A DNA stretch of 64,000 nucleotides from Kushneria konosiri (GTDB lineage: Bacteria; Pseudomonadota; Gammaproteobacteria; Pseudomonadales; Halomonadaceae). Made by a program: the position numbers and the translations under genes. The notes beneath the pieces are model-generated. The model had not been told where the DNA came from, did no database searches, and saw nothing but the letters and a program-made list of their open reading frames with translations. The stretch lies in the NCBI RefSeq assembly GCF_002155145.1, contig NZ_CP021323.1, positions 1,736,001-1,800,000 on the forward strand. Reading direction: 5' to 3'. How positions within the stretch are numbered: the stretch's first letter is position 1; every line of letters starts with the position of its first letter. This document shows positions 33,297 to 56,910 of this stretch, one piece after another.

Positions 33297-34286
33297 TCAT
33301 GTCAGTCTGGCCACGGGCAGCTCCCCCCAGCGCGTGGTCCATCGATTCGAGCGATAGTCACAGCGCAGCTGCCAGTCGGCGTCACTGCGCTGCATGCCGA
33401 CCGTGACCGTGTTGCGTCCAAACCGCGTATTGAGCTGATCCAGCGTGGCCATCAGGTGGTCGCTGCGCTGTCGCTCATCATCTGACTGCGGGGTCTGGAA
33501 GACATCGAGCTGCTGGCCGTCCACATCCTGCAGATCCATGAGCTGAACACCACACTTTTGATAAAGAATGCGGCGGGGTTTCCAGAGCCGTGCCAGCGCC
33601 CTTTGGGCCGTGGCCACGATCTCGAAGGTGTTGTCGGTCGGGCGCGGCAAGGGCAACACGACCCGGTTACGATCCTGCGCCAGATGAGACATGTGTGGAT
33701 TGGTGCGCAGCATGACCATCACGGCGCCTGCAAGGCTTCGCTGTGCCCTCAGTCGCTGCGCACTGCTTGAGGCGTGCGCCCGCACGGCCTCTTCGATGTC
33801 ATAACGATTGGAGGTCACCCTGCCGAACGAGCGGCTGGTCATGATCATCTTTCGACTGTCAGACGCCTCGTTCATGTCGATGCAGCTCACGCCGCGCAGT
33901 TCGCGAACGGTGCGTTCGAGCACCACCGAAAACTGCTGTCGAATCCAGGTCGGGTGGGCCTGCGCCAGCGCCAGCGCTGTGTCTATTCCGATGGAATGCA
34001 GCCGCGCCGCTACGCGCCCACCGACGCCCCAGATATCGCCCACCGGTGTGCGTGCCAGCAGTGCCTGCGTATCCGGGCTGTCGATACCGCCCAGCATGAA
34101 CACGCCGCCGGTTGCCGGGTGACGCTTGGCATGGCGGTTGGCCAGCTTGGCCAGCGTGCGGGTCGGGGCGATGCCAACTGACACCGGCAATCCGGTCCAT
34201 TGATACACCGTCTGGCGCAGGCCATGGCAGTGCGCAACAAGCGTTGAGACCTCAAGGCCTTCAAATCCCAGCCAGCTTTCATCGAT
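33297..34286 (-). pseudogene. umuC: umuC 3' part, cut off from its 5' part by a genomic island
   Basis: This fragment encodes the C-terminal 329 residues of a UmuC-type Y-family DNA polymerase (DNA polymerase V catalytic subunit). It begins in frame with IDESWLGFEGLEVSTLVAHC at 34286, passes the palm/thumb segment LPVSVGIAPTRTLAKLANRH and ends normally at 33297. The missing 5' part is at 50492-50803. Joining the two at ATCGAT recreates a full protein of about 431 residues with an uninterrupted PYSIDES motif. An internal ATG at 34206-34208 could start a 303-residue peptide. That peptide would lack the catalytic carboxylates and the finger domain, so polymerase activity is not expected. Confidence 0.93.
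34281..34286. other. Left junction core (attL-like) ATCGAT
   Basis: This hexamer encodes Ile-Asp of the SIDE motif in the umuC 3' part. The sequence to its left is umuC and to its right is island. It is identical to the right junction core. It may be the recombinase crossover region or a target duplication. Confidence 0.8.
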
Positions 34287-34307
34287 ATAAAGGAAAGAAG
34301 ACTAACT

Positions 34308-34317
34308 ATGGACATGG
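34308..34317. repeat. Left subterminal GGACATGG-type motif
   Basis: ATGGACATGGC begins 22 bp inside the left junction. The inverse, GCCATGTCCAT, lies about 45 bp inside the right junction, within CCATGTCCATGG. Two more TGTCCATGG copies occur at 34359-34367 and 34402-34410. These are candidate recombinase-binding sites. Confidence 0.5.
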
Positions 34318-34517
34318 CTCTACGCCAAGTCACACCGCTATTCAAAACAGCATCAGGCTGTCCATGGAAAGAAGCCGTTTTCATGCGACATAGCCTGGTT
34401 ATGTCCATGGTATATCGATTAATTTAATTGTACTCACTGACCGTTTATATTTGCTTTGTCCACAAATTGCGCTCTGCCTCACTCCTGTCGACACCAGAAA
34501 GGCGATGGCCAGAGAAA

Positions 34518-34895
34518 ATGACCAAGATCAGCCTCGAACCTTTCGCAATAGACGACGATTTGGAAACGGCAGTGGCCTACTGGGTCTACATTGATATACA
34601 GACTAGGTCGACTCGCGGAGTGTTCATTATTGGCGTGCATGTTTTAGATCAAACGTTCTATCTCATGGAGTTCCAATGCCGATTTGAGCACTGGTTGCGC
34701 CAGGTACTCTCTAGCGTGCGGCACGTTCAAGGGGGCGTCCAAAAGTTGGTGGGACGCTGCCTAGGCGGCGCTGATACTTTCAAGCACCCTAAATCCAAAA
34801 ATGAACAGATATCCTGCGAAACCTCTGTACTGAATGTTTTTCGCAAGCTCGGTATTGCGCGCAGTGACTGGTGTAGGTGCTATATGCTTTTCTGA
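34518..34895 (+). CDS. Hypothetical protein near the island's left end, weak support
   Basis: This frame of 125 residues starts from ATG 34518 (an in-frame TTG/ATG further upstream is possible from 34428). The sequence MTKISLEPFAIDDDLETAVA continues into a hydrophobic mixed segment, and cysteines are enriched at the end (WCRCYMLF). I recognise no domain. A weak AGAGA precedes the ATG. It could be a remnant of a larger gene. It is the only substantial frame between the left end and the transporter gene. Confidence 0.3.
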   Translation: MTKISLEPFAIDDDLETAVAYWVYIDIQTRSTRGVFIIGVHVLDQTFYLMEFQCRFEHWLRQVLSSVRHVQGGVQKLVGRCLGGADTFKHPKSKNEQISCETSVLNVFRKLGIARSDWCRCYMLF

Positions 34896-34918
34896 CGATA
34901 AGCCAATGCTGCCAGCCT

Positions 34919-35839
34919 TCAGTGACGGACGAGGATCTTCGCTGCGATGGGCGAGGTGATCATCTGAATTACAGCAAAAAAGGCAGCTGGGATCGCGATT
35001 TCAGATGGTAAGCCAGAAGCAGCTACAAATGCTGCGGCAATGCTGAATTCCTTTTTGCTGACAGTGAAAAGATAAGTAATTATCTCTTTGCGATCGGAGG
35101 TAAGTAACCTTGAGGCCATGCCTACCAGGTACCCAATCAAATTAAGGCACAGCGCCACGCCCGCAATCACAAATGCATACCAGCCATAACCAATGATCGT
35201 GGTGGCATTCGGTCCTACCATGGCGAGCAGGATCAGCAGATACAGAATCGACCCTATACCTGCATACGCTGAATCATGCCATGCAAAAAAAGTCGTAAAC
35301 CTTGTTCGCAAGCTCACACCGATAATGGTTGGGACAAGCACGATCAGCGTTAATTCGAGAATAATTGAGCCAAGCGGAACGTCTAGCTGGATACCGGTGA
35401 GCCATAAAAACAAGAACGGAACAATAAACGGACATAACGCGGTGTTAACCGCATTGAAAACAGCGGCAAGTGCCACATTGCCTCTCGCCATCAGTACCAG
35501 AAGAGGAGATGACACATCCGTAGGCAGAGTGCCGAGCAAGGTTTGGCCAGCAGCCAGCGAGCCGCTTCCAAAAAATAGACGGCCAGTCAGCCACCCGGCA
35601 ATCGACATCGGCCCATAGACTAGTCCCAGGGCCAACAACTGGCGCGATGGCTTACGGAACACGATGCGAACTGCATGTGCGTCGAACGTGAGGCTGATGA
35701 TCAACATCAGTAACGCCAGCAATGGCCCAATCGCGGACTCAAGCATTATTCCGGTGGCTGGAAAGAATAAGCCTACCCCCGCGACAGCCATCACAAACCA
35801 GACAAGGTGTGCCTCGACAAAATAAATGAATCTGCTCAT
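34919..35839 (-). CDS. Bile acid:sodium symporter (BASS) family transporter
   Basis: This inner-membrane protein has about 9-10 hydrophobic helices and is related to the SBF/BASS family. From ATG 35837-35839 (MSRFIYFVEAHLVWFVMAVAG) it is 306 residues, the usual family length. Conserved-looking segments include GTLPTDVSSPLLVLMARGNVALAAVFN and the late SKKEFSIAAAFVAASGLP, which resembles the crossover-helix region. The frame stays open upstream for another 100 residues to 36139, overlapping the divergent CDF gene. That part is soluble and unrelated to the family, so I treat it as unlikely. The substrate is unknown. In a metal island it could handle an organic anion or metal(loid), but no evidence settles this. 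Confidence 0.75.
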   Translation of the reverse strand: MSRFIYFVEAHLVWFVMAVAGVGLFFPATGIMLESAIGPLLALLMLIISLTFDAHAVRIVFRKPSRQLLALGLVYGPMSIAGWLTGRLFFGSGSLAAGQTLLGTLPTDVSSPLLVLMARGNVALAAVFNAVNTALCPFIVPFLFLWLTGIQLDVPLGSIILELTLIVLVPTIIGVSLRTRFTTFFAWHDSAYAGIGSILYLLILLAMVGPNATTIIGYGWYAFVIAGVALCLNLIGYLVGMASRLLTSDRKEIITYLFTVSKKEFSIAAAFVAASGLPSEIAIPAAFFAVIQMITSPIAAKILVRH

Positions 35840-36112
35840 GGTGGCTTTGACGTTACCGGTTGAAGTGAATGGTGCTCCCAAAACAAGGTCACTTTCTGCA
35901 CCGCAAGCCCAAGGCGCTGCATAGCCGTCGCTTAACCAGGCTCTAGCAGAAGCCTCAATGATTACTATCTGCCCAGCATGCCATGACTCGTTTGGGAGCT
36001 GGGGCCGCTCCTCCTGATCAAGCAGTTCAAATAGACAATGCTCAAGGGTTGAAGCTTTAGTTGCTAGAGGTTTTATAGTAACAAGAACGGATAATTCGAG
36101 AGAGGGTAATAG

Positions 36113-37027
36113 ATGGGACATCATCATGATCATCCCCACATTGATCCTGCTTCTGGCGACCGGCGCGTTAGCATCTCCATTTGGGCCAATGGACTCTTAA
36201 CCATCGCTCAAATCGTCGGTGGTATTATGGCTGGAAGCCTATCGCTGATCGCTGATGCGTTACATAACTTTTCTGACATGGCAGCGTTGGTCATTGCCTT
36301 TGCCGCTCGTAAAATCGCCAGACGGCCTGCCGATGCGCACATGACCTTTGGCTATGGCCGCATCGAGATAGTGGCAGCACTTATCAACTACACCACTCTG
36401 ATTATTGTTGGCGCCTACTTGATTTACGAAGGCGCTATGCGGATGATCAATCCCCCTGAGATAGAAGGTTGGACGATCGTTATTATTGGTGGCATCGCGC
36501 TTGTCATCGACGCCCTCACTGCGGTGCTTACTTGGTCAATGCAAAAAGAGAGTGTCAATATCCGTGCCCTTTTTCTGCATAACTTATCGGATGCGTTTGC
36601 CTCCATTGCCGTGATTATCGGTGGATCACTTATTTTACTGTACGACATGCGCTGGGTAGACCCCGCGATTACGATAGGGATTGCGCTATATATCCTTTAC
36701 CTTGCTTTCTCTGAAATTGGTGGCCCTATCCGTACGCTAATGCTGGGGTCTCCCCCGGACATTGACGGTCAGTCAGTCATTGAGACCGTAAAAGATGTCG
36801 AGGGTGTCCAGAATATTCACCATGTGCATCTATGGCAGATGCAGGAAAACACGGCAGCCCTTGACTGCCACGTGGTCCTGACAGAAATAGGCTGGCATCA
36901 GATTGAATCAGTCAAGGCAGAGATCAAGGAACAGCTAAAAATGCGCTTCAATATTGCTCATTCCAGTCTGGAGTTTGAGCATAGTGACCACGCTCATCAA
37001 AATGCCAGCTTATATGGACATGAGTGA
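36113..37027 (+). CDS. Cation diffusion facilitator (CzcD-like Zn2+/Cd2+/Co2+ exporter)
   Basis: This 304-residue, six-helix inner-membrane metal/H+ antiporter exports Zn2+ and related cations to the periplasm. The N-terminus is His-rich (MGHHHDHPH). The transport-site motifs are SLIADALHNFSDMAALV in helix II and LHNLSDAFASIAVI in helix V. A C-terminal cytoplasmic metal-sensing domain contains IHHVHLWQMQENTAALDCHV. The ATG start has GAGAGGG upstream. It is divergent from the BASS gene and belongs to the island's metal-resistance set. A second, distinct CDF gene is chromosomal at 60557. Confidence 0.9.
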   Translation: MGHHHDHPHIDPASGDRRVSISIWANGLLTIAQIVGGIMAGSLSLIADALHNFSDMAALVIAFAARKIARRPADAHMTFGYGRIEIVAALINYTTLIIVGAYLIYEGAMRMINPPEIEGWTIVIIGGIALVIDALTAVLTWSMQKESVNIRALFLHNLSDAFASIAVIIGGSLILLYDMRWVDPAITIGIALYILYLAFSEIGGPIRTLMLGSPPDIDGQSVIETVKDVEGVQNIHHVHLWQMQENTAALDCHVVLTEIGWHQIESVKAEIKEQLKMRFNIAHSSLEFEHSDHAHQNASLYGHE

Positions 37028-37165
37028 CAGACAGAGGCTTGTTCTCCAGATCATATTTTTAGAGATTGGCTTCATCCCATAGCGATTGGCCTATTTTTCA
37101 ACTCGGATTTTCCAACCATGGCTGAAAAAAGCTCGCCAAAATCGATAGGCCTCACAAGGCGATTT

Positions 37166-37417
37166 TGATGAATCCGCTATCCTCGATATTGCTTACCAGG
37201 GGGGGTTGATCGAATGGCCGCCGAAAAACAACTGACTTCTGCTAAGGTGCAAACAGTGATCGACCAAAACATGACGGATGTCAGTACCAATCAGATTCGC
37301 CAAACACCAACCTTTTTCATCAATAGCGAACCTTTAGATCCCTTTGGTATGCAAGAGCTCATTGATACCGTCGAGAGTAAAGTAGAAAAGATCTCTACGA
37401 AAAAGGATAGCCAGTGA
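37166..37417 (+). pseudogene. Remnant of a DsbA-like thiol:disulfide protein, C-terminal part with frameshift
   Basis: The 67-residue frame from 37214 matches the end of DsbA/DsbG-type thioredoxin-fold proteins. It has VQTVIDQNMTDVSTNQIRQT followed by PTFFIN, the cis-proline loop. Just upstream in another frame, QGDFDESAILDIAYQGGLI continues the helical part of the same fold. The two frames meet at a run of seven G (37199-37205), suggesting a one-base slip. The N-terminal half with the CxxC active site is gone. Its stop overlaps the M23 peptidase start (ATGA), so it may still serve as a translational leader. Confidence 0.65.
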
Positions 37418-38406
37418 TACAGCGCTGGTGGTTAATAGGTTTGGTGGGCTTATACCCCGTGCTAGCCGAAGCCAATTGGCAAACGCATCTTTCGTTGCCG
37501 CCGGCTGAATCAGTATCCCTCGGGTTACCGGCGGCTGGCGAGCAAGAAGGCACCACGATGCAGGCTGGCGTTGACACCCTGATCATTGGGCGCGATGTCG
37601 TCATTGAGACTACCCTTTATGAAGCCTTTTCAGCAGAAGAAGTTCCCACGCGTTTCGCCACCAAACTGGAAACATTGCTAAGCGAATTTATGGAGGCTCC
37701 GGTGGAGTTTTCCGCCAGTGAGCGTATCCAGTTAGTGTGGGAGGAAGATCGACGCCAGGATGGCACTCGCATTGGGCCACCGCGCCTCAATTATGTGGCT
37801 CTGCCTGATCAGGCAGAGCCTGTAGAGATCATATGGCCGGTCGCCAGAAAGGGAGGCGTAGCATTCTTTCAGGATGACATCCTGCTAGACACATTGCGAT
37901 TACCGGTTCCTGGTGCCCGCTTAACGTCTCGCTTCGGGAATCGGCGACATCCTGTGTATGGAGGGGTTCGTCCTCATAATGGAATTGACCTGGCTGCGCC
38001 GGCTGGAACACCGGTCATCGCCACCGCACCCGGGCGCGTATCCTTCCTGGGTCGCCAGGGAGGGTATGGGCAGGTGATAGAGGTGGAGCACGACACGGGG
38101 GCGATCAGTCGCTATACACACCTTAGCCGATTTTCCCCACAGCTAGTGGTTGGGGATTTAGTCAACGCGGGGGAGTCGCTAGGAAAGGTAGGTTCATCTG
38201 GGCTCACCACGGGCCCCAACCTGCATTACGAAGTGAGGGTCAATAACCAGCCTTTTGACCCTCTTGATCAAGGCCAACGCATCATGCTGGGTGAACAGCC
38301 GACTCAAAAGGAGTATGAGGCTTCACTTTATGAGGCAAGAGTTCGCCTGGAACAGGCTATAGGTACTGCATCCATTTATGACTTGATCTCGCTCAACCAG
38401 CAATAA
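37414..38406 (+). CDS. Secreted M23 (LytM-type) metallopeptidase
   Basis: This 330-residue exported protein has a signal peptide (MIQRWWLIGLVGLYPVLAEA). Its C-terminal LytM domain acts on peptidoglycan or regulates amidases. The first zinc motif is intact (RPHNGIDLAAPAGTPV), as is the central RYTHLS histidine. The usual HxH reads N-L-H (GPNLHYEVR), so the general-base His is Asn while the zinc His remains. The N-terminal domain (about 40-160) resembles the beta-rich region of larger M23 cell-wall endopeptidases. Catalysis may be reduced, or the protein may be an amidase activator. It sits in the metal island between the dsbA remnant and a ZIP gene. Confidence 0.85.
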   Translation: MIQRWWLIGLVGLYPVLAEANWQTHLSLPPAESVSLGLPAAGEQEGTTMQAGVDTLIIGRDVVIETTLYEAFSAEEVPTRFATKLETLLSEFMEAPVEFSASERIQLVWEEDRRQDGTRIGPPRLNYVALPDQAEPVEIIWPVARKGGVAFFQDDILLDTLRLPVPGARLTSRFGNRRHPVYGGVRPHNGIDLAAPAGTPVIATAPGRVSFLGRQGGYGQVIEVEHDTGAISRYTHLSRFSPQLVVGDLVNAGESLGKVGSSGLTTGPNLHYEVRVNNQPFDPLDQGQRIMLGEQPTQKEYEASLYEARVRLEQAIGTASIYDLISLNQQ

Positions 38407-38518
38407 CCACCCGTGTTCAACGGCTTTGCATGAAGTGTGGATAATGTGAAGATATGGTTTTGTCTTTATCGAGCCTGAGCTTTTTGATCAGCTATCCATC
38501 ATTGTACAGGTAACATTT

Positions 38519-39301
38519 ATGGAGGATGTTTCTCCCGTTACCATGGGTGTATTGGCAAGCCTTGCGGCGGGCCTGATGACGGCCATTGGTGCGTTTCCTG
38601 TCTTGTTCACCAAAACACCCAATCGCGGTGTCCAGGATTTAGCGCTGGGGTTCGCCGCTGGTGTCATGCTGGCGGCCTCTTTCTTTTCGTTGATCATACC
38701 TTCCCTGGAAGCCTCGGAGCTGCGCTATGGAGGTAGCGTTGTACCTGCGGCAATTGCCTGCGCTGCCATCTTGCTGGGAATGGGAACGGTAGCACTACTG
38801 AACGAGTTTTTGCCTCATGAGCACTTCGATCAGGGTCGAGAAGGGCCGGAGGCTGCCTCACTACGCCGTATATGGTTGTTTATTATTGCGATTACGATAC
38901 ACAACCTGCCAGAAGGACTCGCCGTTGGCGTGGCTTTTGGCGCAGGAGGTAGCGAAGGAGGCATGCCACTTGCGATTGGCATTGGACTTCAGAATGCACC
39001 GGAGGGGCTGGCCGTAGCAGTATCGCTGCTAGGCGTGGGCTATTCACGTTGGCGGGCATGGACGATTGCAGCCCTTACGGGGCTTGTTGAGCCATTGGGT
39101 GGCTTGTTGGGCACTGGCGTCGTCAGCATGTCACAAACGTTACTGCCCTGGGGATTGGCCTTTGCTGCCGGAGCGATGCTGTACGTGATCAGTCACGAGA
39201 TTATTCCCGAAACTCATCGGAGCGGGCACCAAAAAAAGGCCACGCTGGGCCTTTCCATCGGATTGGTGCTCATGCTGTTTTTGGATGTCTCGCTGGTCTG
39301 A
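38519..39301 (+). CDS. ZIP-family metal transporter (GufA-like)
   Basis: This inner-membrane divalent-metal permease has 260 residues and eight helices. Paired family motifs are visible: ITIHNLPEGLAVGVAFG and IGLQNAPEGLAVAVSLLG (helices IV and V), with Gln replacing the second His as in GufA-type ZIPs. A late SHEIIPETHRSGHQKK loop is also present. ZIPs normally move Zn2+/Fe2+ into the cytoplasm, which is at first sight odd beside exporters. GufA-type members frequently accompany P-type ATPases on resistance islands. The ATG start is taken at 38519. Confidence 0.88.
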   Translation: MEDVSPVTMGVLASLAAGLMTAIGAFPVLFTKTPNRGVQDLALGFAAGVMLAASFFSLIIPSLEASELRYGGSVVPAAIACAAILLGMGTVALLNEFLPHEHFDQGREGPEAASLRRIWLFIIAITIHNLPEGLAVGVAFGAGGSEGGMPLAIGIGLQNAPEGLAVAVSLLGVGYSRWRAWTIAALTGLVEPLGGLLGTGVVSMSQTLLPWGLAFAAGAMLYVISHEIIPETHRSGHQKKATLGLSIGLVLMLFLDVSLV

Positions 39302-39330
39302 CGCGTTGGAAGAGGAAAATAGCGTGGGCT

Positions 39331-39789
39331 CTAACCCAGGTCTTGAGCCCCTCCATGTGAGTTTTCAGTGATACAGAGCTGATGATCACTGATGACTTCA
39401 ATGATTCGGCAGCTTTCCACTTTGCCTCCGGCACAATGCGTGACCATGCGTTGCAGCTCCTCACGCAGTGCAGACAGTCGTTGAAGACGAGACTCTACTT
39501 TTTTCAAATGATGTGTGGCAATGGCATCGACTTCCTGGCAAGACATGTCAGGCTGATCTGACATTGCCAAAAGCTCTCGCACTGAGGCCACCGAAAAGCC
39601 AAAGTCTCGGGCATGGCGGATGAAACTCAAACGCCGAACTGTGTCATCTCCATAACGGCGCTGCCCTCCGTCGGTTCGTGACGCATCGCGCAACAGCCCG
39701 ATACGCTCGTAGTAGCGAACCGTTTCAGGTTTGCAATCGGCCCGCCTTGCCAACTCACCAATGCTGATACTTTGCCCCCTCATCGACAT
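39331..39789 (-). CDS. MerR-family Zn/Cd/Pb-responsive regulator (CadR/PbrR type)
   Basis: This 152-residue dimeric metal sensor twists its promoter when loaded. The N-terminal winged HTH reads ISIGELARRADCKPETVRYY. A long dimerisation helix follows, with the metal-site Cys in MSCQEVDAIATHHL. The C-terminal metal loop is THCAGGKVESC. This Cys pattern is that of CadR/PbrR/ZntR; CueR and mercury-specific MerR differ. ATG 39787-39789 has AAGGAG about 8 nt upstream. It is divergent from the P-type ATPase gene, and the operator lies between them. Confidence 0.9.
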   Translation of the reverse strand: MSMRGQSISIGELARRADCKPETVRYYERIGLLRDASRTDGGQRRYGDDTVRRLSFIRHARDFGFSVASVRELLAMSDQPDMSCQEVDAIATHHLKKVESRLQRLSALREELQRMVTHCAGGKVESCRIIEVISDHQLCITENSHGGAQDLG

Positions 39790-39811
39790 GGTAAAACTCC
39801 TTCCGAAGAGC

Positions 39812-39842
39812 TTGAAGCTGTAGTTGCTACAAGGTTTACACT
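39812..39842 (+). promoter_or_regulatory. MerR-type promoter/operator for the P-type ATPase gene
   Basis: The -35 TTGAAG (39812-39817) and -10 TACACT (39837-39842) are separated by 19 bp, the overlong spacer diagnostic of MerR-activated promoters. The spacer contains the imperfect dyad GTAGTTGCTAC with flanking CT/AAGG, very like the known CadR/PbrR/ZntR operator. Confidence 0.9.
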
Positions 39843-39876
39843 TCGAAACCATAGTTCATATGGGAGGGGCGATTCC

Positions 39877-42063
39877 ATGAAAACATCAACGCAGACAGCA
39901 GAGCCTACCGTCTTGACGCTGCGTGTCGAAGGCATGGACTGCGGCGGTTGTGAGCGCAAGGTAGTGTCTGCGCTGGAACGACTGGACGGCATTGAGGAGG
40001 TGACGGCAAGCTCTGTCACGGGGTCGGTGAAGATTCACCACCACGATCACAGGCCCCCCTCGCAAAAAACCATTGAAGGCACTCTGAACGAGCTAGGCTA
40101 CCAAGTGGTCTCCGATGATGACCACAAACAGGCGTCCAGCTCTTCAATTCCCTGGTGGCAAACCGCCAAAGGGCGCCTGGTCATTATCACAGGAAATCTG
40201 CTGGTAGTGGCCTTCGTGCTTGGTTTGGCATGGCCTTCGTTGGGTAATATCCCTTTCATTCTGGCCACGCTGGTCGGCTTGATGCCCATCGCGAAGAGTG
40301 CCTGGGGCGCACTCAAGATGCGCAACCCTTTTACCATCGAGATGCTGATGTGCATTGCGGCGCTTGGCGCATTGGCCATCAATGCCGCTGCTGAAGCAGC
40401 AATGGTCGTGTTCTTGTTCGCCGTGGGAGAGCTGCTCGAAGGAGTAGCCGCTTCACGGGCGCGACGCAGTATCTCAGCCTTGGCAAACTTGACGCCGTCA
40501 ACCGCAAGACTGATGGACAATGGCGATCTGCGTGACGTCTCGGCAGAATCGCTTGAACCCGGTCAGCGCGTGCTGGTGCGTCCCGGGGATCGCGTCCCCT
40601 GTGATGGACGTATCTTGGTGGGGACGTCAGACCTGGACGAATCGCCGGTAAACGGTGAGTCCATACCCCGTTCGCGCGCACCAGGTGATGACATTTTTGC
40701 TGGCACAGTGAACCTTGATGCCGCCCTGGAGGTGGAGGTAACACGAGGCGCAGATGACAACACCATTGCGCGTGTCATCCGTCTGGTTGAGGAAGCGCAG
40801 GCTGCCAAGGCGCCCATAGCCCGCTTCATAGATCGTTTTGCTTATTACTATATGCCCGCCGTCGTCTTGCTCGCGCTACTGATGGCGATAGTGCCACCGC
40901 TGGTATCGACCATGGCATGGTCGGAGTCGATTTACCGGGCGTTAGCATTGCTGTTGATCGCATGCCCCTGCGCACTGGTGATTTCAACCCCTGCCGCCAT
41001 TGCCGCAGGGCTCTCGGCGGGCGCTCGGCGCGGCCTGCTGATCAAAGGCGGTGTCGTTCTTGAACAGTTAGGCAAGCTTCGCCTGGTAGCGCTAGACAAG
41101 ACGGGCACTCTCACTGCGGGTACCCCAAAAGTCACGGATGTTGAGTCCTGGGCTATCGAGGAAGGCGATAAAAACGTATTACGGCTTGCCGCCGCGATAG
41201 AGCGAGATTCCAGTCATCCTATCGCTACGGCGATCGTCGATCATGCCCATCAGTCGGGCCTGACCCTCCCCCTGGCCACCGGCAGCCGCGCTCTGGCGGG
41301 ACGCGGCGTTTCAGGCCGGGTGGAGGATCGCGAGCTAAGCTTGGTAACGCCTCGTCACCTTCATGGGCAAGTCATGCTTGATGAAAGTATCAGTGCGCGG
41401 ATTGTCGAGTTGGAAGAAGCCGGCAAGAGCCTTGCTATCCTCGTCGAAGGCGAACGTCTACTGGGCTTGATCGCTGTTCGCGATGAACCACGCGAAGATG
41501 CCCTTGAGGGCCTGGCGGCGCTATCGCGGTTGGGTGTGCAAGCCGTGATGCTCAGCGGTGATAACACACGGACCGTCGCTGCCACTGGAGACCGCCTGGG
41601 CATTGAAGCGCATGGCGAACTGATGCCTGAAGACAAGGCAGAGTATATTCGTGACTGGCAAGCGACGGGCCGTGGCCCCGTCGGTAAAGTAGGCGATGGC
41701 ATCAACGATGCCCCGGCCCTCGCGGCAGCCGATGTCGGTATCGCCATGGGCGGCGGCACGGATGTGGCGCTGGAAACGGCAGATGCGGCCTTGCTAAAGA
41801 ATCGCGTTACCGGCATCGCCGAGCTGATAGACCTCTCTCGAACCACGCTGCGCAACGTCAAAACCAACGTCGTTCTCGCCCTTGGCCTAAAAGCCATTTT
41901 TCTAGTCACCACGGCTCTGGGTATTACCGGCATGTGGATTGCGGTGATGGCCGATACCGGTGCAACCGTCCTGGTTACGCTGAATGCCATGCGACTGCTA
42001 GGTTACCGATTTTCGCCCGATAACTCGTTGACAGGCCTGTCTCAAGGGAAAACAACGTCATGA
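39877..42063 (+). CDS. cadA: Zn2+/Cd2+/Pb2+-exporting P1B-type ATPase (CadA/ZntA)
   Basis: This inner-membrane ATP-driven exporter of Zn2+, Cd2+ and Pb2+ has 728 residues. An N-terminal heavy-metal domain carries GMDCGGCERKV (about residues 20-30). The transmembrane metal site is LLIACPCALVIST. The phosphorylation site is LDKTGTL, the HP locus is SSHPIATAI and the hinge is GDGINDAPAL. A His/Asp-rich stretch (HHHDHRPP) follows the heavy-metal domain. I choose ATG 39877, which has GGGAGG upstream; the frame is open further 5' but runs through the promoter. It is controlled by the divergent MerR regulator. Exact metal preference cannot be read from sequence. Confidence 0.93.
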   Translation: MKTSTQTAEPTVLTLRVEGMDCGGCERKVVSALERLDGIEEVTASSVTGSVKIHHHDHRPPSQKTIEGTLNELGYQVVSDDDHKQASSSSIPWWQTAKGRLVIITGNLLVVAFVLGLAWPSLGNIPFILATLVGLMPIAKSAWGALKMRNPFTIEMLMCIAALGALAINAAAEAAMVVFLFAVGELLEGVAASRARRSISALANLTPSTARLMDNGDLRDVSAESLEPGQRVLVRPGDRVPCDGRILVGTSDLDESPVNGESIPRSRAPGDDIFAGTVNLDAALEVEVTRGADDNTIARVIRLVEEAQAAKAPIARFIDRFAYYYMPAVVLLALLMAIVPPLVSTMAWSESIYRALALLLIACPCALVISTPAAIAAGLSAGARRGLLIKGGVVLEQLGKLRLVALDKTGTLTAGTPKVTDVESWAIEEGDKNVLRLAAAIERDSSHPIATAIVDHAHQSGLTLPLATGSRALAGRGVSGRVEDRELSLVTPRHLHGQVMLDESISARIVELEEAGKSLAILVEGERLLGLIAVRDEPREDALEGLAALSRLGVQAVMLSGDNTRTVAATGDRLGIEAHGELMPEDKAEYIRDWQATGRGPVGKVGDGINDAPALAAADVGIAMGGGTDVALETADAALLKNRVTGIAELIDLSRTTLRNVKTNVVLALGLKAIFLVTTALGITGMWIAVMADTGATVLVTLNAMRLLGYRFSPDNSLTGLSQGKTTS

Positions 42064-42099
42064 AAGCAGCGCAAAACGACGGCCCTTCACATCGTTGGC

Positions 42100-42370
42100 C
42101 ATGATTCACCCTCGCTGGCTTGATTGGTAGTGCAGCCATGCAAACCCCTACCACAGTCGAAAGCCTGTACGTACAGCCTGATGCTCGGCCGCGCGCTTGG
42201 TAATACCGTTAATCATTTGGCGCGAGGGCGCGTCGTCGACTATCGGGACGTTTACCGGGCGAATGGCATTGGCCCGCCTTTAACATGGCCGATATAGCGT
42301 TATTGACAAGTGTATTGATGTACGCAATGACGTTATGGCGTGAGCGTCCTGCTTTTAAGCTCTTTGAGTA
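42100..42370 (+). pseudogene. lspA: Decayed lspA (lipoprotein signal peptidase)
   Basis: No intact frame exists here, but two fragments match the C-terminal half of signal peptidase II. One frame reads SLMLGRALGNTVNHLARGRV followed by VDYRDVYR. After a one-base shift, the next reads EWHWPAFNMADIALLTSVLM and ends at TAA 42368-42370. These correspond to the GGALGN-DR and FNxAD catalytic regions of LspA, with the first Asp region changed (NH in place of DR). The N-terminal half is missing. lspA genes often follow CadA/PbrA ATPases on metal islands. This one has decayed while the adjacent lnt is intact. Confidence 0.75.
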
Positions 42371-42375
42371 ACAGT

Positions 42376-43908: not shown

Positions 43909-43980
43909 AGCATCACTTCCATAATGCCATGGGTTGGCCGCACCCGGGATTTACTCTGAATAATGCGCTCCGGCCCAGAC

Positions 43981-44645
43981 AGCATGGACAACCGTCTATC
44001 AGCGCTTTCCACAGTGGCGTGATGACGGCATCTTCGATCGGATTCTGGCACGCCTACACCTTCGTCTTTGTGAAGACGGCATCATGGATATCGACACCTG
44101 AATGATGAATTCAACATCCATCAGAGCGGCTCGATCAGCCAGCGGTGCCGGTAAAAAAGGCATCGGTATAACCACCGGATCATACCCTCGGCCGTAGCCG
44201 TGGCGGTCTGGGCACGAAGATACATCTTCTGTGTGACAGCCGCGGCTTTCCTCTTGTCTTCTCCCTTTCCACAGGCCAGTGCGCCGATTCGATACACCTG
44301 ACCGAACTGCTGTAGAAGGTTCGATTACCGGGGCATTCGGGTCGACCTCGCAAATGCGGCCGTTACATCGTGGCGGACAAGGGCTACAACAGCGATGTGC
44401 TGCGACGCTACTGTACACGTTACGACATGCGTCCGATCTCATCCCGCGATGCCGCATGCATCGACGCCCGCGGTCGGGTCTGCCGCATAAGTTCGACCGG
44501 CCAAAATACCGTCAGCGCAACGTGGTGGAACGCCTGTTTGGCTGGCTGAAGGAAAACGTCGGTTGAATACCCGTTACGACAAACCGGCCAGCAGCCTCAG
44601 GGCCATGGTGTCGCTGGACTGCCGAGCGATGCATGAGAGCCGACT
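43981..44645 (+). pseudogene. Degenerate IS5-family transposase
   Basis: Fragments in all three plus-strand frames match an IS5-family DDE transposase. They include QRFPQWRDDGIFDRILARL, then an in-frame stop where Trp is expected (about 44099), then NSTSIRAARSASGAGKKG. A second frame has GRSRGGLGTKIHLLCDSRG, and a third has YIVADKGYNSDVLRR and RNVVERLFGWLKEN. At least three frameshifts and two stops are present, so it is dead. Terminal inverted repeats were not identified. The remaining 44646-44921 contains no supported gene. Confidence 0.75.
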
Positions 44646-44921
44646 TTTCAGACAGAACCTGATCACTGTGCTTCCATTGGACGGATCTATCACCGTTTCC
44701 GACATGTTGGTTTTGGTTCGATTGATGCTGGCTGGAACCGGCATGAAGCGGCGATTCTTTGGCTGCCATGCCTCTTTCATCGAAGGATCGGTGTGGAGAG
44801 TAGTTAATGCCAATGCGACTGGATGGCCTGACGAGCGCAATGGCACATAAAACTATCCCGTAAAGAGCTTTCCGAACGCTCTAAAGTGCGACTTCTTCTG
44901 AAATACTACCGAGTGTCAGAT

Positions 44922-45386
44922 TCAAAGTTTTTTGCGTCCTCGTGGATCGATAGGTAAGACATTTGATGTAGGTAGTTGCCGTTCTAGCTCATCAATGCGG
45001 TCATACAGCTCAAGCATGTTGGCATCGGCCTCACTTAACAGGCTTGCAAGGTGATCTCGTTGCCGTGTAATTTCCTCGATCCGCTCCCGAAAGCCACGAT
45101 TTTTCTTGCGAGTCAATAAACTGACCTGACGCGCAGATTTTGGGTATTCCTCAGCATGCACTTCAATGTACTTTTGGATTTCATCAACCAAGAGAGGAAA
45201 TCGCGTTTTTTTCAAGGCAGAGGGGTCACTGCCGGCCTCTTTGGCAACGTTGTTCTGACTTAAAGGAGTACCCTTTGGCAGTCGTTCGGACTTGTTGTTT
45301 TTTAGGCGCTCGAACGCCGCGCGATACTGCTCTTCGGCGCTCGTACGCTTGGTTGAACCAGTAGAGTTACATTTGCTGGATGGCAT
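44922..45386 (-). CDS. Small coiled-coil accessory protein of the recombinase module
   Basis: This 154-residue protein is encoded last in the recombinase operon. Its start overlaps the end of the third recombinase gene by 20 bp. GGAGA precedes ATG 45384-45386. The central part contains an HTH-like segment (LSQNNVAKEAGSDPSALKK). A long C-terminal helix/coiled coil follows (RIEEITRQRDHLASLLSEAD and further heptads) with a basic tail. Tn554 has a small third protein, TnpC, in the same relative position that assists transposition. A comparable DNA-binding or synapsis role is plausible here but unproven. Confidence 0.75.
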   Translation of the reverse strand: MPSSKCNSTGSTKRTSAEEQYRAAFERLKNNKSERLPKGTPLSQNNVAKEAGSDPSALKKTRFPLLVDEIQKYIEVHAEEYPKSARQVSLLTRKKNRGFRERIEEITRQRDHLASLLSEADANMLELYDRIDELERQLPTSNVLPIDPRGRKKL

Positions 45387-47400
45387 GGCGATAGTTCTCC
45401 ACACTACGTTTCTGGGCTTCGAGTGAAGCTCTCAGAGGACTTTCTGCTTCGGCAGTAGCCAGGCGCTCGTCCAGAATTGCCTCCAACGCTTCAACTTCAT
45501 TGAGTTGCGCGGGGTCATACAGCACGTCCGCACATGGCTTGGGCTGCTCAAGAGAATCGCCTCCACCGCAATGTGCGATATTGTCGATACCGCCATAGGG
45601 ACAAGGGGCTCTACTGGTGCAAATGCCAAGCAATACAGAACGATAAGATGCTATACCTTTCTTGGCCAGATTGATCACTTTCCTGGCATCAGTAGCTGAG
45701 ATTAGCCGCACGATCTCGGATTTCCGCTTCTCACCGTGCGGGCTGACAAAACGGTCACTCGCAAGCTGTTGCAGTTGTCGTCCCAAAACTTCGTACATGG
45801 TACGGACATAAAGCGTATGGGCTTTCTCGTCCAGCCGCACTCGTGAGTGGTTCTGACCATAATAGAGGCTCATCGCTCTGGTGACATGCTTGAGCTGAAA
45901 CTGCAGGGAGGCGTCGCTGACCAGTCCCGAGGCCTGCATATTAACTGCCCCGGTTCGCCTCAGCTGGTGCCAGGCCAACGGCCATATTTTGCCAACTGCG
46001 AACTCATCAGATAACGTTGGTGTAACCATACGTGCCAACTCAAAATCTTTCTGGGTAATACGCATCTGCTCAGGGTCGAATAGCTGAAGTGCTCTTGCCA
46101 AGTATGGAATCCCGGGACGAAGAGAGTGATTGGCTTTACTCCCTCTTTTGCTCCACGGTTCAGTTGCATAGCCAATTAGATAGCGCGATTCTGAGGCTGT
46201 AGCTTTTGTTTCTGGGTGTGCGTTGGGCTCAGACAAAGCACTTTCTGTACGGAGGTTAGCGACAACCTGCATGGCTTTAACCGCTACCCTGGCTGAGGGA
46301 GAGGTTACCCAAAGGGCTTGGGAGTCAGACATGGTTTTAGTCGTGCAGCCTTGCAAGATATAAATATCACCAAAGGACGGATCCTTCTCTATTTGCAGGC
46401 AATTCGTTCGGAGGTTCCAGGCCTCTTCGACTCGCATAAGACTGAAGTTCAACAAATAGCCCAGTCCGGCTCTGCTTACGAGATTTAAGTAGCTGGTCAG
46501 TGTCTGGACACGGATCTCTCTGTCGCTCCGGCCTGTCCAGCGTTCCAGAAGGTCCGCGATACCAAACCGGCGGGCCGTATCGATGAATTGACCGTAATAC
46601 TGACGTCCAGTCTGTTGGCCGTTAGCTTCGTCAGTTGGCCACCTAAGCGGATAAAACGACTTGGGCTTTTTTTGCCCTTGAGGGGTTATGAAGTTGGACC
46701 TATAGGCGTTCACACAGAAGCGGAAGCACTCCTCTACAGACTCTTGATGAGCCAGAAAGTCGTCCAGGCATGCGCGTAAGCGTGTAACTTGGTAATGCCA
46801 GATGCGAGGTGGGATATACGGGGTCTGGTTAACCTGATGTTCAGGTAAGGATGCTGCAAGGCGCGCCAGTCCTGCGCGATCAAGGACAGTGAACCCTATA
46901 GTATTGCGGCGTTCATAAAGTTCACTTAATAGTGCTAAAAATTCGCCTGATCGGGATATTTGAAGCACTTTTGATAGTTGATCTGAAACTCGAGGAAACT
47001 GACTTAGCTCAGACGCTAGAATGCCTTCTTGAGTACATAGAACAAACAGCTTACGCATCTGATCGAAACGGGTTTTCAGACCTCGGACACCGCGTGCTCC
47101 ATTCGGGCCATACAACCACCAACCGATAATGGTTCGCAGCAAATCTGCATTCGCAGGACTAATCACGGCTGCATATTTTTTTATCGGGCCGTCACCGAAG
47201 TTGAGGATAATCGCTTTTCCTGCCCACGGATCAAGCCGCCAAATAGGATCACCCCAACGACTCACTATGTGACCAGCTGCATCAATGATGACCGGCCAAT
47301 CTCGTTGCGGTGGCCAACACGGTGGACGATAGTTGGGCGCGTCAGGAACTGCCAGAGGCGAGTCAATGGAAAGGCCAAATTGCGAAAGAGGATTTTGCAT
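45367..47400 (-). CDS. Tyrosine recombinase, third of the trio
   Basis: This 677-residue site-specific recombinase has its catalytic core in the C-terminal half. A probable Arg I region is RVEEAWNLRTNCL, the HxxR motif is WHQLRRTGAVNM, and a late His/Arg region with the probable nucleophile is HVTRAMSLYYG. An extra C-terminal region (about 540-677) carries Cys residues (ICTSRAPCPYGGIDNIAHCG), reminiscent of a zinc-binding tail. Its ATG shares one base with the stop of the second recombinase (TAATG), indicating translational coupling. It is longer than classical XerC/D-type integrases and resembles the large members of multi-recombinase elements. Confidence 0.85.
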   Translation of the reverse strand: MQNPLSQFGLSIDSPLAVPDAPNYRPPCWPPQRDWPVIIDAAGHIVSRWGDPIWRLDPWAGKAIILNFGDGPIKKYAAVISPANADLLRTIIGWWLYGPNGARGVRGLKTRFDQMRKLFVLCTQEGILASELSQFPRVSDQLSKVLQISRSGEFLALLSELYERRNTIGFTVLDRAGLARLAASLPEHQVNQTPYIPPRIWHYQVTRLRACLDDFLAHQESVEECFRFCVNAYRSNFITPQGQKKPKSFYPLRWPTDEANGQQTGRQYYGQFIDTARRFGIADLLERWTGRSDREIRVQTLTSYLNLVSRAGLGYLLNFSLMRVEEAWNLRTNCLQIEKDPSFGDIYILQGCTTKTMSDSQALWVTSPSARVAVKAMQVVANLRTESALSEPNAHPETKATASESRYLIGYATEPWSKRGSKANHSLRPGIPYLARALQLFDPEQMRITQKDFELARMVTPTLSDEFAVGKIWPLAWHQLRRTGAVNMQASGLVSDASLQFQLKHVTRAMSLYYGQNHSRVRLDEKAHTLYVRTMYEVLGRQLQQLASDRFVSPHGEKRKSEIVRLISATDARKVINLAKKGIASYRSVLLGICTSRAPCPYGGIDNIAHCGGGDSLEQPKPCADVLYDPAQLNEVEALEAILDERLATAEAESPLRASLEAQKRSVENYRHAIQQM

Positions 47401-49130
47401 TATATTGATTGTTGTCGTAGTTCTGCCAATCGAATGAACCCTGCCCAGACCGGATGATAATCACCCTCTGTGATACGGGCACTCATCTCTTCCACCCAAA
47501 GCTTTCGTATATTGTTACTTTCTTCAAAAAAACGCAGTTTGGCCGTCAGACGCTTGATCGTAAGCAAGGCTGGATGTTCTGTCGCCACCTGACTTCCTGC
47601 ACTAGGCGGGTGGTAGCATGCCAGCTCGAGTGATTTAAGGTGACGCAGGCTGCCGAGAGACCAGACATGATCTTCACTTTCGATATCCCGATGTTGCACA
47701 CAAAACAGACAGCCAGCTGCATTTATGCAATCAGGACGCGGTGCATTCCGCGGAGTTTCACTTAGCAGTTCAGGTTTGGCCGATATACATTGACCTGGGG
47801 CGGGAGAAGAAAGGGATGGGTCGGTTTTTTGATGGAAGCGTGTAATCTCCGCCATGGCGGTCTGTGGATGCGGGTCGGAATATACCCTTATTAGCGTTTC
47901 AACCGTGTGTTGAGCCATCTCTGCAACCTGTTCCGGATTCTGAGACTCACGAAGCAACCAGTTGATACGCGTTCCGCGCATTTTTCTTGGCCTTACAAGT
48001 TGTATGCCGATTTTGCTGCAAACATTCATAAGACTCGTGAATTGAGGCGGCTCTACTGTGATTCGTCCTCCAATGCGCACAAGTGGAAATAGCAAATCAT
48101 CTGGCTCGGTGGAAAACCATTCAGAGCGCCACACGAGATAATTTTCGAACCAGTTTCGGTAATTGGCATAAATTTCGAACAGTACTTCACCGTCGCGGCG
48201 CTTTTTAAAGGTGCGTACCTGATAGCCGTCTAGGTGACTGGCGTAATGGAAATGCTCGACTCGCATGGTATGGGCTTGCTGCAGGTTCATGCCGGTCTGA
48301 GCAATGAATATCAGCAGCTCGCTTTCAATGCGTAAATTGACAAGAGGATAACGAGTTCGCAGGGTTCGATCTTCCTGCCAGGCAGCACGAGCTGCCGCTG
48401 ACGCTTCTATCTGCGCCCGGGATTGGGGTCTGGTACGTCGAGCCGCTGCTTTCTCCGGTTGCGGCAGTCCTGACCATTGTTCCAAGACTTGTCCGGTGCG
48501 TAACGGGATACAAACCGGCAGCGCTCCCTTTATTGTTTCTGACGTCAATGCGTTGCATATATCAGCTAGTAAATGTCCGAACTCGAAGGTGCTTTGCAGA
48601 TTCTGTTTATCTGCTCTAGCAGTATGCACCTTGCCTTTGCTGCGTGGCTTGCGAATACGAGTGCTTTTGCTCAAGCTCGCCTGGCGGTCCAGCGCACGGT
48701 CAAGCATTGTCGCGGTGAGCCTGGTAAGGTCATATAGGGTGCCTTCACTAAAGCTGCGCTCGACTCGATAACGGTGTAGTAAGTGATCAGTCCAACGAAT
48801 GAAGGTATCGGACACCGTTTCGAGATCAAGTTTTTCTCCTGTCGCATCGCTCCAGGCAAAGAAGCGTCGCAACGCAGCAATTTTATTTTGCGCCGAGTAG
48901 CGGCTTCCGCCACCAGCAAGGTCGGCAGCCATGTGTTCGTGTAGCCGCATTACCAACTCGATGCGCTCTGGTAATAGTTGACCGAGCTCGCCCTGATCGA
49001 TCTGACTGTCAACTTTCTTCGTTTTTGCAGCAGCACCGCCTCTGTATAGCAGCGGTCGGAGATCCCATGGTCTCTCATGAATCCCGTACTCAAGTATCGT
49101 AAATGTAAGATCAACGGTGCAGCTACTCAT
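47400..49130 (-). CDS. Tyrosine recombinase, second of the trio
   Basis: This protein of about 576 residues resembles phage-integrase/TnpB-type recombinases of multi-recombinase elements. The C-terminal catalytic region shows RGTRINWLLRES and then AQHTVETLIRVYSDP, containing the His and probable nucleophilic Tyr. The Arg I region reads TGMNLQQAHTMRVEHF, with Asn where Arg is usual in TGxRxxE, so catalysis may be altered. A Cys-rich tail (CINAAGCLFCVQH) follows. ATG 49128-49130 overlaps the stop of the first recombinase by 8 bp (ATGAGTAG). A GTG at 49157 is an alternative start. Confidence 0.82.
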   Translation of the reverse strand: MSSCTVDLTFTILEYGIHERPWDLRPLLYRGGAAAKTKKVDSQIDQGELGQLLPERIELVMRLHEHMAADLAGGGSRYSAQNKIAALRRFFAWSDATGEKLDLETVSDTFIRWTDHLLHRYRVERSFSEGTLYDLTRLTATMLDRALDRQASLSKSTRIRKPRSKGKVHTARADKQNLQSTFEFGHLLADICNALTSETIKGALPVCIPLRTGQVLEQWSGLPQPEKAAARRTRPQSRAQIEASAAARAAWQEDRTLRTRYPLVNLRIESELLIFIAQTGMNLQQAHTMRVEHFHYASHLDGYQVRTFKKRRDGEVLFEIYANYRNWFENYLVWRSEWFSTEPDDLLFPLVRIGGRITVEPPQFTSLMNVCSKIGIQLVRPRKMRGTRINWLLRESQNPEQVAEMAQHTVETLIRVYSDPHPQTAMAEITRFHQKTDPSLSSPAPGQCISAKPELLSETPRNAPRPDCINAAGCLFCVQHRDIESEDHVWSLGSLRHLKSLELACYHPPSAGSQVATEHPALLTIKRLTAKLRFFEESNNIRKLWVEEMSARITEGDYHPVWAGFIRLAELRQQSI

Positions 49131-50412
49131 GATGCGGTACCCCGGAGCCGATGCCACTGAATGCCGCCATAAAGCTATTTGAGAGCGCTTGCTTGACTGG
49201 CAATGCCTGTAAAAATCGAATGTATTTAAAAGTAGTCGCTTCCGAACTGGGACTATGAAGTAGTGCGTCTCTGACCATCGAAATTACGATAGCGACATCG
49301 GTACAACTGGAAAGGCCCAGACGTGCCAATTCGGTACCGAAGGTGCAACGTGACTGGTGGAAACGAAATTTACGAAGCGCTTGTAAACCTGCTTTTGATC
49401 CTCGCTCCCGAAACGCTGACATCTCAACATTTACTGCAGATGACTGATCGGTGCTACGTCTGCCGTAAGCATTGCCAAATCGAGTCAGGAACAGCAGATC
49501 ACGCTGTTCGGGTGATGCTTTCGCCTCTCTTCTTAGCCGCCGCAATCCATTGCCATATTCAAGCAACTGATCAAGCAACGCTTCGGGAATCCAGATTTGG
49601 CCAGTCACACCAAACTTGGTGTGCACCGATGGAGAGGCGCCTGGACCTATCGCAAGGCGCAGTAGCCCTTCAGCGGAAGGGTCTGGGATAGCGTGCTTAA
49701 GGGTTTGGATCTTGAGATCACAGATACTCCCAAGCCGCATTCCAGTGAAAAAACCGAGTGCCAGCATGAGATAAAGCTCAGGCGTAGCATGCAGTGCAGC
49801 AAAATTCATGATCGCGTCGCGATCAGCCTCTGAAACTGGAAGTAATCCATCCTCAAGTGTCTGCCCAAACCGTTTACGATTCGGGATGCCAAGATCGGTC
49901 GTGATTCCACTTATTGTTCTTTCGAACCCGATCTGATCGAAGTATTTAACCAGGTAGGGCTTATCCCGCCATAAGGTAAGGGAAGGAGATAGAAGCTCCT
50001 TGTGTTTCACCCATCGATAGAACATGACGCAATTGCGCATGTACTCGGACGCTGTTGATGGACTGATCTGGCCCGCATCGCGCGTCCTTATCAACGCTCC
50101 CCGATACAACACCAAGCATCGATCAGCTTTGCGAACAGGAAACTCAAACCAATGTAGATGATGAGATTCCAAGAACTTGGCGTAATTGAGCAGGCCATTC
50201 ATGTTGCTGACAACAGTCTTTAGAGAAGCATTGCCAGTTGTTGCTCGTTCTACTGCCCACAGGTTTGCTTCCCTCCAGGGCATGCAGTCTGCCCAGAAAA
50301 GCTGAGGCAAGCCTTCAATAGATGGTTGACTGTTACTGGGCGAGTAAGTGGTAGATTTATCGCCGCATACAACGTGGTGGGGTACGAAGTGAATGCGTTC
50401 TAACGTCGCCAT
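49123..50412 (-). CDS. Tyrosine recombinase, first of the trio, next to the right junction
   Basis: This 429-residue integrase lies 80 bp inside the right junction. An N-terminal SAM-like DNA-binding region (about 55-150) precedes a catalytic domain. Arg I is in GFFTGMRLGSICDL, the HxxR motif is in KFRFHQSRCTFGTELARLG, and the probable Tyr nucleophile is in SEATTFKYIRFLQ. GGAG precedes the ATG 50410-50412. It is the promoter-proximal gene of the four-gene recombination operon. Its promoter must lie within the terminal 80 bp or in the umuC 5' fragment beyond. In the latter case the SOS promoter of umuDC could drive it. Confidence 0.87.
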   Translation of the reverse strand: MATLERIHFVPHHVVCGDKSTTYSPSNSQPSIEGLPQLFWADCMPWREANLWAVERATTGNASLKTVVSNMNGLLNYAKFLESHHLHWFEFPVRKADRCLVLYRGALIRTRDAGQISPSTASEYMRNCVMFYRWVKHKELLSPSLTLWRDKPYLVKYFDQIGFERTISGITTDLGIPNRKRFGQTLEDGLLPVSEADRDAIMNFAALHATPELYLMLALGFFTGMRLGSICDLKIQTLKHAIPDPSAEGLLRLAIGPGASPSVHTKFGVTGQIWIPEALLDQLLEYGNGLRRLRREAKASPEQRDLLFLTRFGNAYGRRSTDQSSAVNVEMSAFRERGSKAGLQALRKFRFHQSRCTFGTELARLGLSSCTDVAIVISMVRDALLHSPSSEATTFKYIRFLQALPVKQALSNSFMAAFSGIGSGVPHHE

Positions 50413-50434
50413 TCATTGCTCCGAGTTAGCTTGG

Positions 50435-50446
50435 CCATGTCCATGG
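50435..50446. repeat. Right subterminal CCATGTCCATGG motif
   Basis: This is the inverse of the left-end ATGGACATGG motif, 46 bp inside the right junction. It is a near-palindromic candidate recombinase site located directly upstream of the first recombinase gene. It could also be an operator for that gene. Confidence 0.5.
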
Positions 50447-50491
50447 CACTAACTTCATGGTTTGGGTGTCACTACTATATAACTTACTCTT

Positions 50492-50497
50492 ATCGAT
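50492..50497. other. Right junction core (attR-like) ATCGAT
   Basis: This is the second copy of the hexamer at the umuC/island boundary, encoding Ile-Asp of the 5' part. It is identical to 34281-34286. Confidence 0.8.
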
Positions 50498-50803
50498 GGA
50501 GTAGGGCTCTACAAATGGTGCAAGGGTGCGCAGTGTGGCCAGCACGCGCGCGCTCATGTCGCCATAGAGTTCGTAGTTGCTGGAGCACAGCACCAGCCCG
50601 TGGCGTGCGGTTTCCGGCGGGATATGGTGCAGCGGCATGCCCATGGGGATGCCCAATGCAATGGCCTCGCTTGAGCGGGCGATCACACAGCCGTCATTGT
50701 TGGAGAGCACAACCACGGGCAGGCCATGCAGACGCGGTCGAAACACACGTTCACAGCTGGCATAGAAGTTGTTGCAGTCCACCAGTGCGATGGGCGCCTT
50801 CAT
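50492..50803 (-). pseudogene. umuC: umuC 5' part, truncated by the island
   Basis: These 104 codons encode the N-terminus of UmuC. They begin [20 protein letters not shown] (first catalytic Asp), pass [20 protein letters not shown] and [12 protein letters not shown], and stop being umuC after VEPYSID. The frame then runs into island sequence and ends at 50426. The ATG at 50801-50803 overlaps the umuD stop (ATGA). The rest of the gene is at 33297-34286. The break falls between the Asp and Glu of the catalytic SIDE motif, so no active polymerase can be made. Confidence 0.93.
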
Positions 50804-51252: not shown

Positions 51253-51282
51253 GTCGGCGGCCTGCGATAATGAAGATGATAT

Positions 51283-56841: not shown

Positions 56842-56910
56842 TGTCAGGACCGGGCCGCTGTCATGCGGCCCGGTCGGCATATTGACGGCACCTCCCAAAG
56901 GCACAGGGTC

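Follow-up and report, generated by a model that had tools for sequence, protein, structure and literature searches.

A strand-biased circular element-type insertion within the Asp codon of the catalytic Ser-Ile-Asp-Glu motif of umuC in Kushneria konosiri

The split umuC gene

We analysed a 64,000-nucleotide stretch of the Kushneria konosiri chromosome (positions 1,736,001 to 1,800,000 of NZ_CP021323.1, assembly GCF_002155145.1; hereafter the window), part of a single contig of 3.58 Mb, in which umuC was interrupted by an element of 16,205 bp. A preceding reading of the letters and open reading frames (the sequence-only reading) had proposed that an island of about 16 kb splits umuC, and the split was confirmed. 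The two halves lay on the minus strand, and the frames covering them scored as UmuC. When the flanks were joined, 1296 nt were obtained, which encode 431 aa and a single stop codon with none internal. Aligned with the UmuC of congener G006, in which the gene is intact, the joined UmuC showed 366 of 431 identical residues and no gaps. The features at the site, with SIDE standing for Ser-Ile-Asp-Glu, were as follows.

50800-51345, minus strand: umuD, upstream of umuC (NCBIfam PRK10276, E 4.2e-37, above cut-off)
50493-50803, minus strand: umuC 5' part, codon 1 to the GA of the SIDE Asp codon (frame 50426-50851, NCBIfam UmuC, E 1.4e-39)
50493-50498, minus strand: host hexamer CATCGA beside motif C (fingerprint), equal to that of intact congener G006
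50483-50492, minus strand: motif C, TAAGAGTAAG
34288-50492, minus strand: SE-type element (see below), 16,205 bp, with boundaries equal in three Kushneria copies and end motifs shared with 26 further copies
34288-34297, minus strand: motif C', CTTTCCTTTA, which in inverted orientation agrees with motif C at 7 of its 10 positions
34282-34287, minus strand: foreign hexamer TATCGA beside motif C' (footprint), absent from eight intact Kushneria umuC sites
33297-34281, minus strand: umuC 3' part, running from the final base of the Asp codon through the stop codon (frame 33297-34208, NCBIfam UmuC, E 1.5e-70)

The break had been placed between Asp and Glu, but the cut lies inside the Asp codon (GA/T). 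The ATCGAT noticed at both edges was present and consists of the hexamer plus a neighbouring T; the two hexamers, however, differ at their first base. The single frame of about 431 codons proposed for the joined flanks was borne out; the element proper spans 34288-50492, where 34287-50497 had been given. The same genome has another intact Y-family gene, which was taken to be dinB.

Insertions in Kushneria and the range of targets

Among ten genomes of the genus, nine contained the UmuC 3' part and one gave no match. In six of the ten, umuC was intact at the SIDE codons, and three (G000, the window genome, and G002 and G008, included in the ten) were occupied by the same element at the same codon; therefore, the split is not a matter of chance. 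The three Kushneria elements were 16,205 bp each and differed pairwise at 1, 2 and 1 positions. In contrast, their 300-bp flanks showed 35 to 88 mismatches, and the 5' flank of G002, which has lost most of the umuC 5' half including the start, showed 186-193 per 300 bp. These near-identical elements within divergent flanks therefore point to recent separate insertions in three Kushneria species. As a separate observation, G004 carried an extra umuC fragment (C26:995695-996234; loci L024, L035), 83% identical over query residues 44-223, besides its intact umuC.

A scan with one genome per species gave 56 loci related to IntA, the first recombinase of the element, which is a lower bound since two peptide patterns were used. 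In a tree of 60 IntA proteins (scan loci, plasmid loci and the window; the partial-IntA loci L095-L097 and L099 left out), 28 umuC rows and one sulfatase row (L050) formed one clade with 100/100 support. A complete intA-tfp-intB-srap-type quartet was present in 49 of 59 related loci examined, a count that again omits L095-L097 and L099; the shortened L052, L062 and L065 stayed in both the tree and the count. Twenty-nine complete copies could be compared; pUM505 (L038) was left out because it has no second end. The same umuC codon, in the context Ser-(Ile/Val/Leu)-Asp, was broken in 28 of them and a sulfatase gene in one, which bears out the earlier proposal of a site-specific element whose target is present in many hosts. 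In the Snodgrassella copy (L064), just a short end of the umuC 5' half was recognisable. The sulfatase copy had CGAAGA on the host side and CGTAGA beside C'; the latter fits a donor umuC with Ser-Val-Asp, and also a variant of the sulfatase sequence.

The sequence-only reading had suggested a search for the same recombinases in the SIDE codons of umuC and dinB. They were found there in umuC, and no dinB insertion was seen among the loci examined. The presumed DinB gene of the K. konosiri genome has CT at -5/-4 and lacks the TA present there in 29 of 29 copies, a difference that may explain why dinB is spared.

Several side observations came from the survey. In clades further from the umuC group, the elements lay within or next to other genes, among them comM at two motifs, a multicopper oxidase and DnaE2. 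Such SE-like sets were located in or beside comM (Mg chelatase family) at L074, L076, L078, L079, L081 and L089 and at L077, L082, L084 and L098, and two conserved motifs were involved, NLAPADLPKDGG and NPCPCTG. The comM call rests on Pfam for L074, L077, L079 and L089 and on the motif for the others; the short L082 frame had no Pfam match. Directly upstream of the related sets at L068, L042, L092 and L086 lay frames resembling a multicopper oxidase, a DnaE2-type polymerase, UPF0047 and a thioesterase, and these are candidate targets. In L056, a record titled Streptomyces, both element and umuC were Pseudomonas-like, which is probably contamination.

End hexamers and their sidedness

The element ends, CTTTCCTTTA and TAAGAGTAAG, are imperfect inverted repeats (7 of 10 positions complementary) with the hexamer between them. 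Over the 29 copies, motif C read TAAGARTAAG with rare changes, and motif C' read CTTTCCTTTA except for CTTACCCTTA in two. The host bases T-5 and A-4 upstream of the hexamer were found in 29 of 29 copies, and no search pattern asked for them. All 29 copies had GA in both of their hexamers and a host GA at +2/+3, which was partly imposed by the patterns. The C'-end pattern nATnGAYGA presets an Ile-type hexamer, its GA and the host YGA for 24 of 29 copies; the three Kushneria copies, L146 (AGTTGA) and L153 (CGTAGA) are free of this bias. This pattern hit 23 of 26 records, and its reversed control gave one hit in one record. In the remaining three records, the pattern without its last three bases gave no hit, and a looser pattern yielded the ends of two. 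The script pattern for the C end included GATAAG; without the GA it still returned GA in 27 of 28 loci, the exception being L062, where the scanned stretch gave no match.

The two end hexamers differed in 20 of 29 copies, with both ends on one contig in 14 of the 20. Sidedness is known at six informative sites, where ends differ and an empty or near-empty site is available: three in Kushneria (via congeners), a Pseudomonas megaplasmid, a Klebsiella-type plasmid and Serratia. At all six, the hexamer beside motif C was that of the host and the one beside C' was foreign. The Kushneria C hexamers equalled those of the nearest congeners, and the C' hexamers TATCGA, GATTGA and TATAGA occurred in none of the eight intact Kushneria umuC sites. 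On plasmids, the empty L124 and L125 had TATTGA, and the occupied L010 and L129, probably one insertion, had TATTGA at C and CATCGA at C'. The empty L126 and L127 also had TATTGA; L128 had CATCGA at C', and L009 had TATTGA at both ends. L009 and L128 share plasmid type and umuC site, so their different C' hexamers could reflect two events or a later conversion.

In Serratia, 11 congeners with an intact site were fetched from 32 other genomes with a match; all 11 had a Leu codon at the site, with the hexamer GCTGGA in 8. The occupied Serratia copy had GCTGGA (Leu) at C and CATCGA (Ile codon) at C', and its 3' flank beyond C' was the 3' half of the same umuC, with 86-95% identity to umuC of the congeners along 900 bp. 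For P. oleovorans, no empty site was found in 56 other genomes.

Class assignment, mechanism and consequences

At one end of the element, beside the umuC 5' half and co-oriented with umuC, lie four overlapping recombination genes.

49123-50412, minus strand: IntA, 429-aa tyrosine recombinase, R226 H352 R355 H386 Y397 (Pfam Phage_integrase, E 6.6e-6, just under cut-off)
47400-49157, minus strand: Tfp, 585-aa recombinase-fold protein, Asn291 at the expected box-I Arg (no Pfam or NCBIfam match)
45367-47400, minus strand: IntB, 677-aa large tyrosine recombinase, R323 H478 R481 H505 Y513/Y514 (no Pfam or NCBIfam match)
44922-45404, minus strand: Srap-like protein of 160 aa (weakly similar to the product of gene four in the pSEA1 SE)

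The catalytic residues of IntA and IntB (Arg, HxxR, His, Tyr) were invariant in 15 of 15 aligned sequences, and Tfp had Asn at the first Arg position in all 15. In the window Tfp, RxxR replaces HxxR, while His417 and Tyr426 are kept. In a fold comparison with the predicted Tfp model (pLDDT 77, pTM 0.45), the top five hits were to XerA, Cre and lambda excision complexes, and none of them was strong (best E 0.006). When PDB sequences were searched with the Tfp and IntB profiles, all rows were at E 0.08 or higher and none was a recombinase, and the IntA profile gave only XerA (E 0.082). NCBIfam and PADLOC held no match for the four genes. NCBIfam was also the check made for the gamma-mobile-trio, and none of the four genes matched.

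As described in PMC10214605, strand-biased circular elements (SEs) carry intA-tfp-intB-srap, have the catalytic Arg-His-Arg-Tyr set (RHRY) in IntA and IntB only, are target-specific and leave a 6-bp spacer, whereby the donor hexamer passes to motif C' and the hexamer of the target remains at motif C. The window element shows the same gene order at one end, gene sizes in agreement with those of SEs, RHRY in IntA and IntB but not in Tfp, inverted repeats around a 6-bp spacer, and the hexamer rule at six of six informative sites. SEs also lack mobilization genes, and in line with this the scan of cargo frames, which did not extend to every small one, found neither a relaxase nor a conjugation family. 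The inverted ends of the element measure 10 bp, against 13-19 bp in published SEs. By these features, the element belongs to the SEs, a recently described and still unusual class. The recombinase set is not a new one but that of the SEs.

The closest relative that has a name is SE-PaeBT2436, a tmexCD-toprJ carrier that is also inserted in umuC and whose Tfp is 76% identical to that of the window. SE-PaeBT2436 is defined by the proteins WP_034039553.1 and WP_023443007.1 (PMC10214605), and these two are the second and fourth annotated proteins of L010, L128 and L129. L009 also encodes WP_034039553.1, and its IntA, Tfp and IntB are 82%, 76% and 77% identical to those of the window. SE-PaeBT2436 and the tmexCD-toprJ 'int-int-hp-hp' units (PMC10214605, PMC8547460, PMC10654056, PMC9769766) share with the window element the four-gene set, the umuC codon, the end motifs and the hexamer rule. 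Their cargo is a resistance-nodulation-division pump, whereas the element here lies in a Kushneria chromosome and carries heavy-metal genes that resemble DNA of Halomonas plasmids. SE-6283 and SE-6945 of Vibrio alfacsensis share gene order, IntA/IntB homology, the 6-bp spacer and the sidedness (PMC10214605), but have other targets, only about 21-22% identity in IntA and IntB, and weakly alike Tfp and Srap. Profile matches to the pSEA1 SE (locus L131, which its size and bcp neighbour suggest is SE-6283) reached E 1.4e-13 for IntA and 1e-11 for IntB.

We consider SE-type transposition of the umuC island, with the donor hexamer going to the C' side, to be very probably the best explanation. IntA and IntB would cut and join the DNA with the assistance of Tfp and Srap, roles suggested by the SE work. 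A circular copy would carry the six bases beside motif C of the donor site; on its insertion into a new umuC, the hexamer of the target would remain next to motif C, and that of the donor would come to lie next to C'. With the cut after the GA of the Asp codon, umuC no longer encodes an intact protein, and a predicted metal-efflux cargo is gained.

It is highly improbable that a single ancestral insertion was inherited by the three Kushneria species, or that the island later spread by homologous recombination through its flanks. Such a history would account for the shared codon, but it would also be expected to leave long identical flanks, whereas 1-2 differences in 16,205 bp stand against at least 35 mismatches per 300-bp flank. 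Moreover, the hexamers adjoining the element already differ, with three different ones at C', and umuC is intact at the site in six of ten genus genomes. A short overlap that differs between the two ends is expected for integrase elements of the lambda or integrative and conjugative element (ICE) type as well. An ordinary cut-and-paste element of this kind, its mismatched overlap repaired randomly to either side, nevertheless seems unlikely, since the host hexamer was at C and the foreign one at C' at six of six sites (1 in 64 if sides are random and sites independent), and no relaxase or conjugation family was found among the scanned cargo frames; on the latter ground, ICEs and integrative and mobilizable elements were also set aside as classes. 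Six-nucleotide staggered cuts with a repaired heteroduplex have been described for GInts (PMC5385486).

The set of three recombinases and a small protein would speak for a GInt or a rulB integron-like element (ILE), as would the relation of rulB to umuC; there is still very little chance that the element is one of either. GInts, compared by description, share four genes, site specificity, hybrid end repeats and the 6-nt overlap, but their order of catalytic and non-catalytic proteins differs and the described insertions are at gene ends or intergenic (PMC5385486). The protein lacking the full catalytic motif is the second here and the third (GinC) in GInts. The rulB ILEs FH1-FH6 are likewise mobile cargo elements of 9-16 kb with three recombinases, inserted in a umuC-family gene; however, they enter 123 bp into rulB, at pWW0 6488-6490, about 200 bp upstream of the SIDE hexamer at 6288-6293, and their end sequence CTGAGGG and recombinases of 385, 525 and 535 aa are unlike those of the window element (PMC4542609). 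This other entry site, together with a dissimilar second recombinase pair on pUM505 (blastp against IntA, Tfp and IntB gave nothing better than E 1.9), agrees with the earlier remark that the recombinases differ from those of rulB elements. On the plasmid pUM505, umuC fragments adjoin two recombinase sets that are unrelated to each other, the first near 8082 and the second at the SIDE codons near 19930. RIT elements, with three recombinases of 315-410 aa that all have the catalytic Tyr and with 34-bp inverted ends, were rejected against recombinases of 429, 585 and 677 aa plus a fourth gene. Tn554 was rejected as well, because its tnpABC has no counterpart of Tfp, which is present here.

Several observations weigh against SE-type transposition into umuC as we propose it. 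The sulfatase insertion indicates that umuC is not an absolute requirement. Nine of the 29 copies had identical hexamers and are silent on sidedness, and in 8 of 29 (Serratia included) the two ends were on different contigs and were paired as the genome's only hits. For Kushneria and Serratia, the empty sites were taken from congeneric genomes of another species or strain. Finally, Tfp and Srap matched the pSEA1 SE weakly (E 0.0021 and 4.9e-4; probability 13% and 32%).

The remainder of the element consists of a transposase remnant and cargo.

44279-44566, plus strand: DDE transposase remnant (Pfam E 0.0017, below cut-off)
42340-43908, plus strand: apolipoprotein N-acyltransferase, Lnt (TIGR00546, above cut-off)
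39772-42063, plus strand: heavy-metal P-type ATPase, longest frame with the true start probably inside (Pfam E1-E2_ATPase, HMA)
39331-39852, minus strand: MerR-family regulator (Pfam MerR)
38519-39301, plus strand: ZIP transporter (Pfam Zip)
37414-38406, plus strand: M23-type peptidase (M23 endopeptidase models, all below cut-offs)
36113-37027, plus strand: cation-efflux (CDF) transporter (Pfam Cation_efflux)
34919-36139, minus strand: SBF-like transporter, longest frame (Pfam SBF_like)

Judging from the family names, the cargo would export metals. About 87% identity to Halomonas plasmid DNA was seen over 55% of the element, a part without the recombinases; therefore, the cargo is probably of Halomonadaceae origin. 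The transposase remnant, between srap and the cargo, may mark how the cargo was joined. Elsewhere in the window, at 56194-57834 on the plus strand, a bacteriorhodopsin-family gene is followed by a gene of the beta-carotene 15,15'-dioxygenase family.

That umuC is a hotspot of both tmexCD-toprJ integrases, with 'relatively conserved insertion sites', has already been published (PMC8547460, PMC10654056, PMC9769766 and PMC9134201). In the SE paper (PMC10214605), umuC does not occur in the main text, and no paper in the literature searched covers both umuC and SEs. What is new here is this member of the class, the target at base level and the reading of the footprint. The hotspot is thereby linked to the SEs, a class of mobile elements, the site occupied before becomes readable from its trace, and near-identical metal-resistance DNA is found in three Kushneria species. 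The insertion costs the host its intact UmuC, a loss that had been predicted and that the split supports; DNA polymerase V activity would be lost with it, and copy-out of the SE type would not restore umuC. In the sequence-only reading, the loss of SOS mutagenesis was proposed as something that could stabilise the island. The SE lineage probably moves from umuC to umuC, with the C' hexamer copying the Ser-Ile/Val-Asp codons of the last umuC left. If so, the three Kushneria insertions came from three different donor umuC genes (TATCGA, GATTGA and TATAGA), and some of the moves by which the tmexCD-toprJ units spread could be followed from their C' hexamers.

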